Positions 1 through 33,370 of a stretch of DNA of 35,633 nt are shown here, piece after piece (position 1 is the stretch's first letter; each line of letters opens with the position of its first letter). The translations under genes were made by a program, and so were the position numbers. The notes beneath the pieces are model-generated. The model was not told the DNA's origin. It saw only the letters and a list, made by a program, of their open reading frames with translations, and made no database searches. Source of the DNA: a virus; the IMG/VR virus record IMGVR_UViG_3300044633_000728, positions 1-35,633 of that record; one strand, written 5' to 3'.

Positions 1-1
1 T

Positions 2-211
2 TGCAAAAACATGAAGCCAGTAATAGAAAAGTTTATTTCAGAAAATTCAGACATAGAGTACACAGTTATTGATGTAGACAGTCAGTCTGACCTAGTTAAA
101 AAGTATGAAATACAAACAGTCCCTACATTTATTTCAAAGATTGATGGAAAGATTCACGACAGAATTAGTGGGATTGCATCAGAGTTTAAATTAAAATCAA
201 TGTTTGGGTAG
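2..211 (+). CDS. Thioredoxin-like protein, 5' part outside window
   Basis: The frame is open to the left edge and begins Cys-Lys-Asn-Met-Lys-Pro, which matches the residues after the first Cys of the WCxxC-K-x-(M/L)-x-P active site of thioredoxins. The Met at base 11 is therefore internal, not the start. The cis-proline motif Thr-Val-Pro-Thr-Phe follows about 35 residues later, as in the family. A dithiol reductant of this kind could recycle the peroxiredoxin encoded convergently at 750-1286. The missing N-terminal part prevents a subfamily assignment. Confidence 0.85.
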   Translation, partial: CKNMKPVIEKFISENSDIEYTVIDVDSQSDLVKKYEIQTVPTFISKIDGKIHDRISGIASEFKLKSMFG

Positions 212-237
212 TTTTTAGTCATACCCAGGACCTTGTA

Positions 238-750
238 TTAAGCAGATAGTATTTTTGATAAAGCGTTCATAGTCGCTGCAATTCTTCCGATATCACGCAA
301 TTGATCAACACTGTATCCTTCTTGCTTTAATGTTTCATAGTGCGCTTTAACACAGAAATGACACTTTCCTACAATGGATGAGGCAAGAGAATAAGCCTCA
401 AACTTAGCCTTTGTTGTTCCACCATGAGACGTAATGGCATTCATTCTAAGTTGTGCTGGAAGCCCCTTAAGATTTGAATCATCTGCCATTTCTATATAGG
501 GATACCAAACATTGTTCTGTGCCATAATAGATCCTGCAGAAAGAGCAGCATTTTTTTCTACTTCATCAGTTGCATTTGCAACCAAGAATGCAAGAAGTTT
601 TGAGTTACCAGTGGAAAATGCTGCAGCAATAGAAAGGTATAATGCCTGATCAGAATCAATACTAGATCTATTAATTACTGCATCAAGATTTAATCTGATG
701 TCTTTGGCATATTCTGGAAGGTTTTCATTCAACTGACCAACCCATGACAT
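238..750 (-). CDS. ahpD: AhpD-like alkylhydroperoxidase
   Basis: From the ATG at 750 the product is 170 aa and begins MSWVGQLNE. Glu118, Cys130, Cys133 and His137 (CHFCxxxH) fall at the numbers known for mycobacterial AhpD, whose CxxC dithiol has weak peroxidase activity and reduces AhpC through lipoylated adaptors. The start overlaps the ahpC stop (TAATG), so the two are translationally coupled. An upstream in-frame extension to 789 lies inside ahpC and is not used. AhpD is unusual in a phage and suggests host-derived peroxide defence. Confidence 0.93.
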   Translation of the reverse strand: MSWVGQLNENLPEYAKDIRLNLDAVINRSSIDSDQALYLSIAAAFSTGNSKLLAFLVANATDEVEKNAALSAGSIMAQNNVWYPYIEMADDSNLKGLPAQLRMNAITSHGGTTKAKFEAYSLASSIVGKCHFCVKAHYETLKQEGYSVDQLRDIGRIAATMNALSKILSA

Positions 751-1286
751 TATAGTGTGTCTCCACCCAAAGGTCTGTTGCATGCACACAGTTCTCCAGT
801 CTGAAGTGCATCAAGAACACGAAGTGCCTCATCTGCATTACGACCAACATCAAGATTGTTCACTGTAATATGTTGAATAGTATTTTCTGGATCAACAATA
901 AACGTTGCACGATATGTTACACCAGATGAATGATGAACGCCTAGATCTCCAGCCAACTGATGTGCTGTGTCTGCAAATGCCCATGAGTTTGTCTTACGAA
1001 GATCGTCATGTGCATTACGCCATCCAATCTTACAGAACTCGTTGTCTACTGATCCAGTCATTAGTACAGCATCTCTATCGTTAAAATCATTTACAAGTGC
1101 ATCATATGCGACAATTTCAGTTGGGCATACAAAAGTAAAGTCTTTTGGATAAAAGACAATGATCTTCCACTTTCCAGGAAATGAATCCTGTGTTAGTACT
1201 TCAAATGATGAATCATCATATGTTAATGCTCCAGGCTTAACTCCAGTAACAGCAAAGTTGCCTAACTTATCTCCGATAGTTTTCAT
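750..1286 (-). CDS. ahpC: AhpC-type 2-Cys peroxiredoxin
   Basis: The 178-aa product has the peroxidatic motif FVCPTEI (Cys54) and a C-terminal CACN (Cys167, Cys169). This three-cysteine pattern is typical of actinobacterial AhpC paired with AhpD. It reduces H2O2 and alkyl hydroperoxides in the cytosol. The order ahpC-ahpD with a TAATG overlap matches the bacterial operon. A purine-rich AGGTAAG precedes the start. A perfect 12-bp palindrome lies about 50 bp upstream. Confidence 0.95.
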   Translation of the reverse strand: MKTIGDKLGNFAVTGVKPGALTYDDSSFEVLTQDSFPGKWKIIVFYPKDFTFVCPTEIVAYDALVNDFNDRDAVLMTGSVDNEFCKIGWRNAHDDLRKTNSWAFADTAHQLAGDLGVHHSSGVTYRATFIVDPENTIQHITVNNLDVGRNADEALRVLDALQTGELCACNRPLGGDTL

Positions 1287-1328
1287 TTCTTACCTTTTCT
1301 TTTAGTTTAGTAAAACAAATTTAAGGAC

Positions 1329-1346
1329 AATATAGTGTTGCAACAC
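1329..1346 (-). promoter_or_regulatory. Palindromic operator and weak -10 ahead of ahpC
   Basis: GTGTTGCAACAC at 1335-1346 is a perfect 12-bp palindrome. On the minus strand it abuts a TATATT hexamer (1334-1329). The position suggests a repressor or peroxide-sensor operator for ahpCD. No convincing -35 is visible. Confidence 0.4.
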
Positions 1347-1411
1347 GCTACAAAAATGTTTCCCGACATAAAAATAGCGACCATATTGTCACATTACAAT
1401 TATACCATGTG

Positions 1412-1484
1412 CACCCCTGGCAGGAATCGAACCTGCGACGCTTGGCTTAGAAGTCCAACGTTCTGTCCACTGAACTACAGAGGT
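1412..1484 (-). tRNA. tRNA-Arg(TCT)
   Basis: A 73-nt cloverleaf with acceptor ACCTCTG/CAGGGGT (one G-U pair), anticodon loop CTTCTAA (anticodon TCT) and T arm GCAGG-TTCGATT-CCTGC. It reads AGA, a codon favoured in AT-rich phage genes. No CCA is encoded. It is the last of four tRNAs in one leftward array. Confidence 0.93.
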
Positions 1485-1488
1485 TTGG

Positions 1489-1561
1489 CTGGGGATGCAG
1501 GCATCGATCCTGCGACATCCGAATTAACAGTTCGGCACTCTACCATCTGAGTTAATCCCCA
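1489..1561 (-). tRNA. tRNA-Asn(GTT)
   Basis: A 73-nt cloverleaf with acceptor TGGGGAT/ATCCCCA and anticodon arm CCGAA-CTGTTAA-TTCGG (anticodon GTT). It lies 4 nt from each neighbouring tRNA, so the array is probably processed from one transcript. Confidence 0.95.
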
Positions 1562-1565
1562 TCAG

Positions 1566-1639
1566 TACATCTGGAAGGACTTGAACCTTCGGCTCTCTGC
1601 ATATAAGGCAGGTACTCTAACCAACTGAGTTACAGATGT
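1566..1639 (-). tRNA. tRNA-Ile(TAT)
   Basis: A 74-nt cloverleaf with acceptor ACATCTG/CAGATGT and anticodon loop CTTATAT (anticodon TAT, reading AUA directly). One C-A mismatch sits at the base of the anticodon stem. Bacteria usually read AUA with lysidine-modified CAU tRNA, so a UAU isoacceptor is a notable phage supplement. Confidence 0.9.
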
Positions 1640-1643
1640 GTAG

Positions 1644-1717
1644 TACACCAGGTAGGACTTGAACCTACGATAACCGAATTATGAGTTCGGGGCCTTGACC
1701 AACTTGGCTACTGGTGC
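1644..1717 (-). tRNA. tRNA-Met(CAT), elongator-like
   Basis: A 74-nt cloverleaf with acceptor GCACCAG/CTGGTGT and anticodon loop CTCATAA (CAT). The anticodon stem lacks the three G-C pairs of initiator tRNA, so it is elongator Met or possibly an Ile(k2C) tRNA. It is the first tRNA of the leftward array. Confidence 0.92.
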
Positions 1718-2616: not shown

Positions 2617-3213
2617 TTATTTTCCAGTATACATTTGTCCAGAAGTTTTGATTTGCATACCTTTTTCGTTTGCAGCCCAAAGCGTCGATATATATCTTGT
2701 TTGATCAGTAACTGTCTTAACACCATGCCTATACTTTGTTGTTCCTGGATGAATAACCAAATCTCCTTGAGTCGGATGGTATTCAATTCCAATTTCTGGA
2801 TAATATATTTCTCCACCAGGAACGTCATTGTGATATATAGCAGTGTTAAATAAAATAGTTTCTTCATCAGTTTCATCTATCTCACTAAAGTCAGCATGGA
2901 CAAACATATCCTGCCCTTTTGTCATTCTATGAATAGATCCAGGGGTGCCATAAGAAAGTTTTCCACCAAACTTAAACAAACATGAAAACCTAGTTGTTAT
3001 AATATCTGATAACTTTTTTATCTCTGGGTTTCCTAATGCGTTTAGATATTTACCGCTATACCAACCAGAGTTTTCTTTCCACCACTCTTCTTCATCAACA
3101 GAGTTTGCAAAATTTAGATAGACCTCAGACTCATAATCTTTAACAAAGTTATGAATTACCCAAATCTTTTCTTCAATTATTTCTAGATTAGGATTGTCAT
3201 AAAGTATTGTCAT
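2617..3213 (-). CDS. 2OG-Fe(II) dioxygenase, prolyl-hydroxylase-like
   Basis: The 198-aa product has the iron facial triad HxD...H (His106, Asp108, His163) and an Arg at 173 for 2-oxoglutarate, inside the P4H-type pattern GGEIYYPE...GDLVIHPG. It should hydroxylate a protein or small-molecule side chain using O2 and 2-oxoglutarate. Its start overlaps the stop of the related upstream gene by 4 bp (ATGA), so the pair arose by duplication or is at least co-translated. The substrate is not indicated by sequence. Confidence 0.9.
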   Translation of the reverse strand: MTILYDNPNLEIIEEKIWVIHNFVKDYESEVYLNFANSVDEEEWWKENSGWYSGKYLNALGNPEIKKLSDIITTRFSCLFKFGGKLSYGTPGSIHRMTKGQDMFVHADFSEIDETDEETILFNTAIYHNDVPGGEIYYPEIGIEYHPTQGDLVIHPGTTKYRHGVKTVTDQTRYISTLWAANEKGMQIKTSGQMYTGK

Positions 3214-3986
3214 GATAAAGGCCTAGGAGGTAGTTTCATTGCCTCTTTAGGGTCATTGTTAACGAGGTCTGGTTCAACTTCTACAAACTCTCCAGTCTTT
3301 GGATCCTCAAATACGTACTGTGCTTTCTTTAGTTCCTCTGCCTTTTGATCATAGCCAAACCCAGTCGTAATATATCTTTTTGGTCCAGCAAGAAGTGTTC
3401 GTACTCCGTGATCATATTCTTTTCCAGTTCCAGGGAATAGAACTAAGTCTCCAGGGGTAGCCTTGTAGTCAATGCCTAACTCTGGGAAGTAAAGTTCCCC
3501 TCCATTAAACTCATTAAGATAAACAACCATTGCTAATATGCAGTAGTTATTATGTCCAGAGGTTTCTCCAATTTTTTCTCCATGCTCATCATGTAGATCT
3601 CTAATCTCTGTAGGGTTATCAGTATGAATAAACATTCCCTGACCTTCTGTAAGTCGATGAAGAGAACCAAAAGCCCCAAGGTATACATCATCCTGTAGAT
3701 AAGTTTCGAGTTTGTCAGAAAGTTTTTGTGCCAACGGCTTTAGTGGTGATGACTCGTCTATAACAATAAACTTCCCAACCCACCAGTTTCTATTCTTCTT
3801 CCACCACTCTTCTTCTTCAAGGGTTTCGGCATAGTCTATGTAGGTCTTTCTATCTTCTTCAGATATAAAATCTCTAACAACCCAAATGTTTTCGTCAATC
3901 TTTTCTACATTTGGGAGTGCATCTTCTTTTACCATTTTTAACAATGGCGTAAACTTTGTCATTTTATCCCATAAATCTTGTTCCAT
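3210..3986 (-). CDS. 2OG-Fe(II) dioxygenase, prolyl-hydroxylase-like
   Basis: The 258-aa product is a longer paralogue of the next gene. His121, Asp123 and His193 form the metal triad and Arg204 should bind 2-oxoglutarate; GGELYFPE and GDLVLFPG frame the core. Both paralogues share the N-terminal block EEEWWK followed by a W-x-x-GK segment. A GGAG ribosome site precedes the ATG. The C-terminal 40 residues are an acidic, proline-containing extension absent from its neighbour. Confidence 0.92.
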   Translation of the reverse strand: MEQDLWDKMTKFTPLLKMVKEDALPNVEKIDENIWVVRDFISEEDRKTYIDYAETLEEEEWWKKNRNWWVGKFIVIDESSPLKPLAQKLSDKLETYLQDDVYLGAFGSLHRLTEGQGMFIHTDNPTEIRDLHDEHGEKIGETSGHNNYCILAMVVYLNEFNGGELYFPELGIDYKATPGDLVLFPGTGKEYDHGVRTLLAGPKRYITTGFGYDQKAEELKKAQYVFEDPKTGEFVEVEPDLVNNDPKEAMKLPPRPLS

Positions 3987-12175: not shown

Positions 12176-12222
12176 GCCCCACGCCAGCCCCTCCCACCTG
12201 ATTAATCTAGGTGACCCAATAC

Positions 12223-12591
12223 CTAGATCTGCTCAACTAAAACTTTAGGAATGTAGGCATTGATAAACATTTGCCAGTCAACCTGTAGGTCCTTGCCTGC
12301 TTCATAGATAGTTTCTTTAGCAACATCGATGACTACCGTGGTTTCACCCAGTTCAAAGTTGGTGCCCTTGATTGCATAAATTCCAAACCCTGTTTCCTCT
12401 AGGACAGAATCTTGCATTAGATAACTAATCATCATACGGTTGAAGTAGGCATAGTCTTTCCACCTAGGCTTTGAATGCTGCAGGGCCATTGCTAGGTCCC
12501 GCTGCCATTCGGTCTCACCCCAGTGGCTATATAGAACTACATGGGCTTCATCCTCAACATCTTTAAATACATAGTTAATCCGTGCTCCCAT
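12223..12591 (-). CDS. Hypothetical 122-aa protein
   Basis: Start at MGARINYVFKDVEDEAHVV, where the ATG overlaps the upstream stop (TAATG). Contains HWGETEWQRDLAMAL and a beta-rich C-terminal half. Similar proteins occur in actinophages as I recall, without known function. Last gene of the 13824-to-12223 leftward operon. Confidence 0.7.
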   Translation of the reverse strand: MGARINYVFKDVEDEAHVVLYSHWGETEWQRDLAMALQHSKPRWKDYAYFNRMMISYLMQDSVLEETGFGIYAIKGTNFELGETTVVIDVAKETIYEAGKDLQVDWQMFINAYIPKVLVEQI

Positions 12592-12737
12592 TAGTTTTCT
12601 TCCTTCCAAGATACGATTGATAATTGGCTTAGTACTTCATTGAGCAGCGCCTCTTCATCTTCTGCCTCTGCTTCATATCTAAATGTCATGTAGTCACCTG
12701 TTGGCTCAAAGATAACTTCTACTTTAAATTCTGCCAT
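12591..12737 (-). CDS. Hypothetical 48-aa acidic protein
   Basis: Begins MAEFKVEVIFEPTGD and has an acidic run EAEAEDEEALL. A beta-alpha pattern; overlaps both neighbours as TAATG, supporting expression. Confidence 0.65.
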   Translation of the reverse strand: MAEFKVEVIFEPTGDYMTFRYEAEAEDEEALLNEVLSQLSIVSWKEEN

Positions 12738-32547: not shown

Positions 32548-32765
32548 GCCTTGAAGAATATAAAGAAAAAAATGGGGTTACTCCATTTGATTTAATAAAT
32601 CCAAAATCTCCTAGATCTTCAGAAGACTTAAAAAAAGAAAGAATGAGTATTTGTAATGATTGCCCAGAACTGATAAAGTTGACTACACAGTGTAAGCAAT
32701 GTCATTGCATAATGTATTTAAAAACTACTCTTGAAGAAGCAAAATGTCCATTAGGAAAGTGGTAA
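32544..32765 (+). CDS. DUF6171-like zinc-motif protein
   Basis: 73 aa. CNDC, CKQCHC and CPLGKW give six Cys, as in the small phage zinc proteins (DUF6171) known from T4-like phages. It is the intact version of the gene at 31745. Function of the family is unknown to me; repeated pairing with a P4H-like enzyme suggests they act together. Confidence 0.8.
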   Translation: MSLEEYKEKNGVTPFDLINPKSPRSSEDLKKERMSICNDCPELIKLTTQCKQCHCIMYLKTTLEEAKCPLGKW

Positions 32766-32767
32766 AA

Positions 32768-33370
32768 ATGAAAAAAGAAGAAATAGCACCAGGACTAATA
32801 GTCTATAGCGATGTAATTCCAAATAGTTTAAATCTTAAAAATGACATAGAAGAAGGAGTTGCATCCTCTGGTCTTTCTTGGTTACCAGCCTATGTTGCAG
32901 AAGCAACCAATGATGCAAAGGTTAATTCAAAAACAAGAGACACTGATTCTATAGGGATTCCATATAATGGTGGAGTAAAAGAACTTTCTGGAAATGTTTT
33001 GTCAGAAATTTTCAAGACAAGTCTAGGAAACATATTTTTTGAACATTTTCATCCAGTAGAGCAAGACTACATGAGTTCTTATGGCATTGGGTGGGGATGG
33101 CATGATGAGTACAGTGTTTTAAGATATGGAAAAGGACAACACTTTACAAATCATATAGATGATCATCCAAATTACCCAAGAAGAACATCAACTGTTTATT
33201 ATTTAAATGATGATTACGAGGGTGGAGAAATAAATTTTCCAAGATTTAATATAACCTTAAAACCAAAGGCCAATCAAAAGATAATCTTCCCTTCAAACTA
33301 TGTGTTTAACCATTCTGTTTCTCCAGTAGTTTCTGGAACACGATATGCAGTAGTAAGTTGGCTATTCTAA
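32768..33370 (+). CDS. Prolyl 4-hydroxylase-like 2OG-Fe(II) dioxygenase
   Basis: 200 aa. His129-x-Asp131, His182 and Arg192 are at the catalytic positions. Both duplicates share KYGKGQ/RYGKGQ, NHIDD and KPKANQ blocks, while their N-terminal halves differ more, which may alter the substrate. Expected to act in the cytosol before virion assembly. Confidence 0.9.
   Translation: MKKEEIAPGLIVYSDVIPNSLNLKNDIEEGVASSGLSWLPAYVAEATNDAKVNSKTRDTDSIGIPYNGGVKELSGNVLSEIFKTSLGNIFFEHFHPVEQDYMSSYGIGWGWHDEYSVLRYGKGQHFTNHIDDHPNYPRRTSTVYYLNDDYEGGEINFPRFNITLKPKANQKIIFPSNYVFNHSVSPVVSGTRYAVVSWLF

Follow-up and report, generated by a model that had tools for sequence, protein, structure and literature searches.

The closest solved structures, by sequence, to the two phage proteins described here are AhpC (2bmx) and AhpD (1gu9) of M. 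tuberculosis, where AhpD receives its electrons from lipoamide. KatG requires heme, here that of the host, and no partner protein. According to established enzymology, AhpCD and KatG share only the removal of peroxide (and peroxynitrite).

Phage-mediated ROS defence has been proposed for freshwater phages (PMC6802176), in a paper whose main text leaves ahpC unnamed. Viral katG is described from Lake Mendota, a freshwater site (cited in PMC12713726), and from viruses of a low-salinity estuary (PMC13390420), and viral ahpC from Microcystis viruses (PMC12542629). A pure culture of acI actinobacteria, which are abundant in freshwater, grew with catalase added (PMC7308576).

The stretch of DNA analysed here, referred to as the window, is the whole of a linear IMG/VR virus record of 35,633 bases (IMGVR_UViG_3300044633_000728), with ahpC and ahpD at its left end. 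The features of this end are as follows.

2..211, plus strand: 3' part of a thioredoxin gene, cut by the contig end; convergent with ahpCD and not part of the swap unit described below
238..750, minus strand: ahpD, 170 aa; its start ATG and the stop of ahpC overlap as TAATG; active-site motif CHFCVKAH
750..1286, minus strand: ahpC, a peroxiredoxin of 178 aa; peroxidatic Cys54, and Cys167/Cys169; from Pfam, alignment, motif counts and the closest structure, 2bmx
1323..1392, minus strand: structured RNA element (model R1), 70 nt, between tRNA-Arg and ahpC; from covariation
1399..1407, minus strand: TGGTATAAT, a site resembling an extended -10 promoter, lying between the structured RNA and tRNA-Arg; from sequence
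1411..1484, minus strand: tRNA-Arg(tct), last of an array of four tRNAs and directly upstream of ahpC; ARAGORN and Rfam
1486..1561, minus strand: tRNA-Asn(gtt); ARAGORN
1565..1639, minus strand: tRNA-Ile(tat); ARAGORN
1643..1717, minus strand: tRNA-Met(cat); ARAGORN

The ahpC product scores 76.4 bits against Pfam AhpC-TSA (PF00578, cut-off 26), and the ahpD product 33.5 against Pfam CMD (cut-off 23). Both fall below the NCBIfam cut-offs, with 109 against 272 bits for the AhpC equivalog TIGR03137 and 112.8 against 191.95 for TIGR00777 (AhpD). The phage AhpC is thus of another type, outside the TIGR03137 equivalog. The longest open reading frame would start ahpD at GTG 789. This start is rejected as over-extended, given the ATG at 750, and 88 of the 93 pairs left after deduplication conserve the TAATG overlap. 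That set of 93 comes from two scans of viral contigs, which returned 320 AhpC relatives and at least 596 AhpD relatives; the best 80 confirmed were taken from each. The window and its copy L001 fell out of it, and in the AhpC tree the window is represented by L002 (99% identical in AhpC).

The peroxidatic motif PKDFTFVCPTE (Cys54) and the C-terminal CACN (Cys167/Cys169) are present in all 153 viral locus records (not deduplicated), so that each has the P-x3-T-x2-C and C-terminal resolving cysteine by which AhpC-TSA is recognised. The AhpD active site, E-x11-CxxC-x3-H, is found in 152 of the 153, the remaining one being truncated. The residue preceding its second cysteine is Phe (CHFC), against His (CSHC) in M. 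tuberculosis AhpD. The original prediction that all catalytic residues are intact therefore holds for AhpC and for the AhpD signature, with the qualification that CHFC stands in place of CSHC. Over 32 sequences of each gene, the median dN/dS (Nei-Gojobori) is 0.060 in ahpC, from the 487 usable pairs among 496, and 0.076 in ahpD, from 432 of 496. Both genes are intact and under purifying selection.

The two genes also travel together. They co-occur in all 153 locus records, some of which overlap. Among loci recruited by terminase alone, 37 have at least 4 kb downstream, and of these ten have both genes, 27 neither and none a single one. The functional unit is the ahpC-ahpD pair and not a trio with thioredoxin. 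The pair fits the genomic description of auxiliary metabolic genes, being phage-encoded, of cellular origin and under selection.

In sister phages the place of ahpCD is taken by katG. An example is L276, which shares 95% terminase identity with the ahpCD phage L130. It has a complete katG (687 aa) at the ahpCD position, behind a like tRNA-Arg and hairpin leader, and its KatG passes the NCBIfam cut-offs (NF011635, 1074.8 against 981; TIGR00198, 970.2 against 770.25). A viral scan with this KatG gave 151 relatives, the best 80 of which were analysed as katG loci. Of the 79 ORFs that reach 600 aa, 77-79 have the active-site motifs, which we take to be the distal Arg/Trp/His, the proximal His and the Met-Tyr-Trp adduct. 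In gene order, katG follows terL and the pair of small ORFs next to it, as ahpCD does elsewhere, and it occurs at the ahpCD position in two more gene arrangements. In L353, L368 and L370 it is found between the upstream small ORFs of the window lineage and convergent genes including thioredoxin, as judged against the window and L002.

The flanking DNA agrees. Of the 80 katG loci, 72 had at least 300 nt on either side for comparison (L428 is not alignable up to the katG start), and for 28 each of the two flanks matches that of an ahpCD locus along 500 nt or more (86 pairs, involving 31 ahpCD loci). The identities on the two sides are 97%/99% for L405/L070, 96%/99% for L371/L086, 95%/97% for L384/L141 and 95%/93% for L374/L273. 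L370 is 76% identical over 1,075 nt to the DNA upstream of the window ahpC, and 79% identical over 2,390 nt to L002 DNA beginning 7 nt behind ahpD, with katG in between. The swap thus occurs in the window's own lineage too.

L376 has an orphan ahpD directly behind katG (12220-12732, plus strand), with CxxC changed to CNYS and the resolving cysteine lost. This seems to be a partner gene decaying after the loss of ahpC. In L479 the structured RNA is followed, near 1150 on the plus strand, by a tiny ORF that fuses a katG-like start to a katG-like C-terminus, which by eye looks like a deleted katG. Four of the 19 katG matches in long records were flagged with an internal stop. The katG ORFs there reach the C-terminal end, so that the flagged stop may simply be the gene's own.

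In the records analysed the two alternatives exclude each other. Of the long records, 40 in number, 20 carry ahpC without katG and 19 katG without ahpC, while G397 carries neither and none carries both, and in loci of at least 12 kb ahpC occurs in 0 of 51 deduplicated katG loci; these sets were recruited by the presence of one gene, so that the counts are no random sample, and records in IMG/VR may lack part of a genome. The terminase tree, with 66 rows (30 ahpCD, 24 neither, 12 katG), requires ten changes of the katG label, all of them forced by well-supported branches. Pairing, place, exclusivity and repeated swapping are thus properties of the locus. The peroxide function is optional, since G397 and 27 of the 37 terminase-set loci have neither alternative near the terminase. 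Because the unrelated AhpCD and KatG exchange in one place, peroxide removal as the selected job is strongly supported, and the earlier claim of a peroxide defence carried by a phage is well borne out by this replacement.

The hosts of these phages are very likely actinobacteria, at the level of phylum, because WhiB occurs in each of the 14 long kin records tested (and, of 14 control genomes, in Corynebacterium alone), because the terminase of the group is 60-64% identical to those of Streptomyces phages, and because the gene order is like that of the Streptomyces phage Gilson. The host link made originally is upheld to this extent.

On the basis of these observations, we consider it highly probable that the locus is a phage peroxide-defence slot, filled by coupled ahpC-ahpD here and by katG in sister phages, exchanged by recombination, and serving to keep peroxide low for replication. 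AhpC would reduce H2O2 and organic peroxides through Cys54 and resolve through its C-terminal cysteines, and AhpD would re-reduce AhpC with electrons drawn from the host. The host is the probable source because no flavoprotein disulfide reductase (Pyr_redox_2) was found in any of the 14 long kin records. The heme catalase-peroxidase encoded by katG would perform the same job alone, at the same place. Low peroxide in the infected cell of a likely peroxide-sensitive host would mean that replication is not cut short, and the phages would hold either ahpCD or katG, exchanged by recombination within a tRNA-rich cargo region. Enzymatic activity, a host electron donor and a benefit during infection are presumed in this scheme, which implies that peroxide would limit the infection of freshwater actinobacteria.

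A related but rather unlikely alternative is that the enzymes protect the infected cell or the particles outside replication, for example in the phagosome of a grazing flagellate or in sunlit water. A phage ROS defence connected with grazing has been proposed (PMC6802176). There is no sign of virion packaging, and nothing separates this alternative from defence during replication, which remains the reading that we prefer.

Most copies of ahpC and katG begin 30-40 nt behind a tRNA gene. Among ahpC loci with sufficient DNA upstream, a tRNA end on the same strand lies within 200 nt of the gene in 62 of 88, mostly at 29-40 nt, against 69 of 1188 background genes, and upstream of katG in 50 of 63 loci. 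The identity of this tRNA varies (Arg, Asn, Lys, Met, Leu, Glu, Asp and others). A short hairpin begins 0-2 nt past the predicted tRNA end before ahpC in 28 of 44 distinct flanks. In controls the figures are 5/90 before another gene, 15/109 before a tRNA and 9/85 elsewhere, and one of the five before "another gene" is in fact the katG of L276. The hairpin was counted in 24 of 39 spacers; after their 5' and 3' parts were re-paired among spacers, the count averaged 11.5 and never exceeded 20 over 2000 trials, with the caveat that spacers of related phages do not vary independently. Of the katG spacers whose starts pass the motif filter, 8 of 23 have the tRNA-end hairpin. The hairpins differ in sequence, as can be seen in the spacers of L071, L119, L126, L349 and L376. 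It is plausible that tRNA 3' processing frees the ahpC or katG mRNA and that the hairpin guards the new 5' end. A dedicated consensus promoter before ahpC is weakly indicated (14/88 against 96/1188 background genes) and was rejected; the putative promoter-like site in the window was so named on what we take to be the extended -10 consensus. A fuller picture, in which a freshwater actinophage group akin to the Stanwilliamsviridae has a dedicated AhpCD/KatG slot that is swapped repeatedly and whose expression is set by tRNA processing with a protective hairpin, may be offered tentatively, at somewhat less than even confidence.

The structured RNA also precedes katG in sister phages. In an alignment of 43 sequences, 97.9% of cells are paired, both partners vary in 13 of 18 pairs, and the fit is lost when the partners are slid against each other. 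The folding of the window sequence by itself is not unusual (z -1.3), so that the case rests on covariation. The invariant parts are UCGGGAAAC and GUUGCAACAC, and Rfam has no family for 1323-1392. The core pattern occurs in 98 viral stretches. Of the 80 loci read, 35 have it before ahpC or katG, 12 before other ORFs (one of these, L501, is a chance match and was excluded from alignment A4) and 33 with no same-strand ORF found. Carriers of the element are L351-L354, L361, L362, L364, L368-L370, L373, L395 and L416, and further L421, L422, L425 and L429-L506. Among 127 further phage loci, from 66 + 63 searched with the window and L003 discounted as part of the model, the model has a single match, L415, and among 21 cellular and Gilson loci it has none. 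The candidate function of a riboswitch for ahpC/katG is weakened by the proportion of 35 in 80, and the element is better described as a phage RNA next to the slot than as a proven switch.

It may be asked whether the slot is simply a neutral hot spot, tRNA-rich regions accepting any gene and ahpCD and katG being exclusive merely because there is a single slot. The cargo comparison, which took loci of at least 12 kb only, found carbamoyltransferase, IMPDH-like, APS-kinase-like and 2OG-oxygenase genes beside both alleles. The region is rich in cargo that is gained and lost (the carbamoyltransferase, IMPDH-like, kinase and 2OG-oxygenase genes), and in Gilson, a related phage that has been isolated, the tRNA array behind terL comes with unrelated cargo, all of which a hot spot would explain. 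However, several cargo genes can share one slot (as in L276), which ahpCD and katG never do, and their exclusivity holds over whole long records that offer more than one position. A neutral origin also fits poorly with the strong purifying selection on ahpCD and with the like tRNA-hairpin leaders before ahpCD and katG. We therefore regard it as improbable, and retain the peroxide-defence slot.

The original prediction had included thioredoxin as the third member of a peroxide-defence module. The complete gene, seen in L002, encodes 83 aa. Among the 153 locus records it directly adjoins ahpCD only in L002, the window and the window's copy L001, in a search at E up to 1e-4 with a partial query that may overlook some. 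It is present in 14/14 long kin records tested, 13 with ahpC and one without, and is therefore not specific to ahpCD. Being convergent, present without ahpC and also beside katG (it flanks katG in L353, L368 and L370), thioredoxin is rejected as a module member, and only the ahpCD pair of the proposed trio survives. The adjoining thioredoxin gene in the window and L002 could suggest that AhpCD takes part with it in redox chemistry other than that of peroxide, such as ribonucleotide reduction. This is very improbable: thioredoxin is equally present without ahpC and beside katG, and the KatG that replaces AhpCD has only peroxide (and peroxynitrite) removal in common with it.

The window has two neighbouring 2OG-Fe(II) oxygenase genes (PF13640) at 2617-3986 on the minus strand, and at 32744-33370 on the plus strand a weak match to an Fe2+-dependent dioxygenase (PRK05467). 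A link between AhpCD and 2OG dioxygenases, suggested earlier, finds no support. Genes for 2OG oxygenases are common beside both alleles, in 35 of 50 ahpCD loci and 25 of 51 katG loci, these counts covering the loci of the two alleles.

The position of ahpCD at the contig edge might suggest an assembly chimera, or bacterial DNA filed as viral, a condition named beforehand and then checked; it can be dismissed, because L002, an independent contig assembled from a different metagenome, is 99.93% identical to window 1-1402 and extends beyond the edge through thioredoxin into more phage genes, and because the pair is also found inside records of 97-120 kb carrying WhiB and thioredoxin, and beside the terminase. 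The genes are on a phage, as was first proposed.

Among 50,697 phage records there is no close AhpC or KatG. The AhpC matches of isolated phages are below 38% identity, except for two short fragments at 47%, and the KatG matches below 60%, with two of the KatG records bearing bacterial names. Several of these homologues look like bacterial DNA in phage records. An example is Microcystis phage MaAM05 (L263, MW495066), which has rplK, rplA, nusG and ilvD in a row.

The ancestry of the phage pair is different from what was expected. The phylogeny against cellular genomes that had been called for was run as one tree of 32 phage and 50 cellular rows, picked from 93 and 111, and as a second set with 32 phage, 32 other cellular and 11 actinobacterial rows. 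Phage AhpC and phage AhpD (32 rows each) form one clade each with 100/100 support, among largely proteobacterial sequences and apart from the 11 actinobacterial pairs. The stems are long (0.47 and 0.63 changes per site). The check thus confirms a single phage clade per protein and leaves the description of both proteins as actinobacterial-type without support. An actinobacterial origin of ahpCD is accordingly not favoured by these trees, whose cellular rows are among the matches listed and whose phage hosts are not identified. In the cellular loci (the best 80 among the matches listed) AhpC identity is 57-64%, with 64% the best. The CHFC motif is present in most cellular AhpDs that are at least 44% identical, and absent from the 14 actinobacterial ones.

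There are two exceptions within the proteobacterial group: KLAP143, a MAG of the Actinomycetota, and a genome bearing the label Mycobacteriaceae, whose row groups with Burkholderiaceae. An AhpC-like match of some kind is present in 143 of the 296 Actinomycetota genomes sampled, and more than 50% identity is reached in KLAP143 alone, which is the sole genome of 58 in its own order with an AhpC match at E up to 1e-30. In its locus (L155:6001-7082) the ahpC stop likewise overlaps the ahpD start (TTGA). As far as the sample of genomes goes, phage ahpCD appears to be no recent copy of a common host gene. Some alphaproteobacterial/Micavibrio ahpCD loci (L197, L199, L219 and L173) have katG within 2.5 kb, so that some bacteria keep both scavengers side by side.

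The functions of auxiliary phage genes are usually assigned from annotation alone, and the exchange of ahpCD with katG provides a natural replacement test. Unrelated enzymes of the same reaction trading one place point to peroxide removal as the selected trait. This leads to the prediction that H2O2 limits infection of freshwater actinobacteria, of which acI strains reportedly need catalase in culture. Matched sister phages with ahpCD, katG or neither are on hand for a direct test of the role of peroxide.

In comparison with known systems, the published phage ROS genes (PMC6802176, PMC12713726, PMC13390420, PMC12542629) are similar in that phages carry such genes, including katG and ahpC. The difference is that the available parts of these papers report neither an actinophage ahpC-ahpD pair nor an exchange with katG. 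No report of the swap was found in the literature searched, most subscription papers and supplements being outside its reach. A phage ROS-defence gene is thus already known as a kind, and the exchange of ahpCD and katG in one slot is the new part.

The phages themselves may be related to the Stanwilliamsviridae, represented by Gilson. The terminases are 60-64% identical, the order of terL, two small ORFs and a tRNA array with cargo is shared, and a window protein of the phrog_1221 family is 50-53% identical over 94-98% of its length to the best records. Gilson differs in having no peroxide gene in the annotated stretch, and the present phages are metagenome contigs, of about 97-120 kb where long.

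With the AhpC/AhpD of M. tuberculosis the phage proteins share the two-gene system, the CxC tail of AhpC and the E-x11-CxxC-x3-H of AhpD; they differ in grouping with proteobacterial ahpCD and in having CHFC, not CSHC. The ahpC-ahpD operons of proteobacteria (Burkholderiales) are closer, with AhpC 57-64% and AhpD up to 54% identical among the matches listed, and CHFC in most AhpDs of at least 44% identity. From these the phage pair is set apart as a separate long-stem clade, with its TAATG overlap and its place behind tRNA genes.
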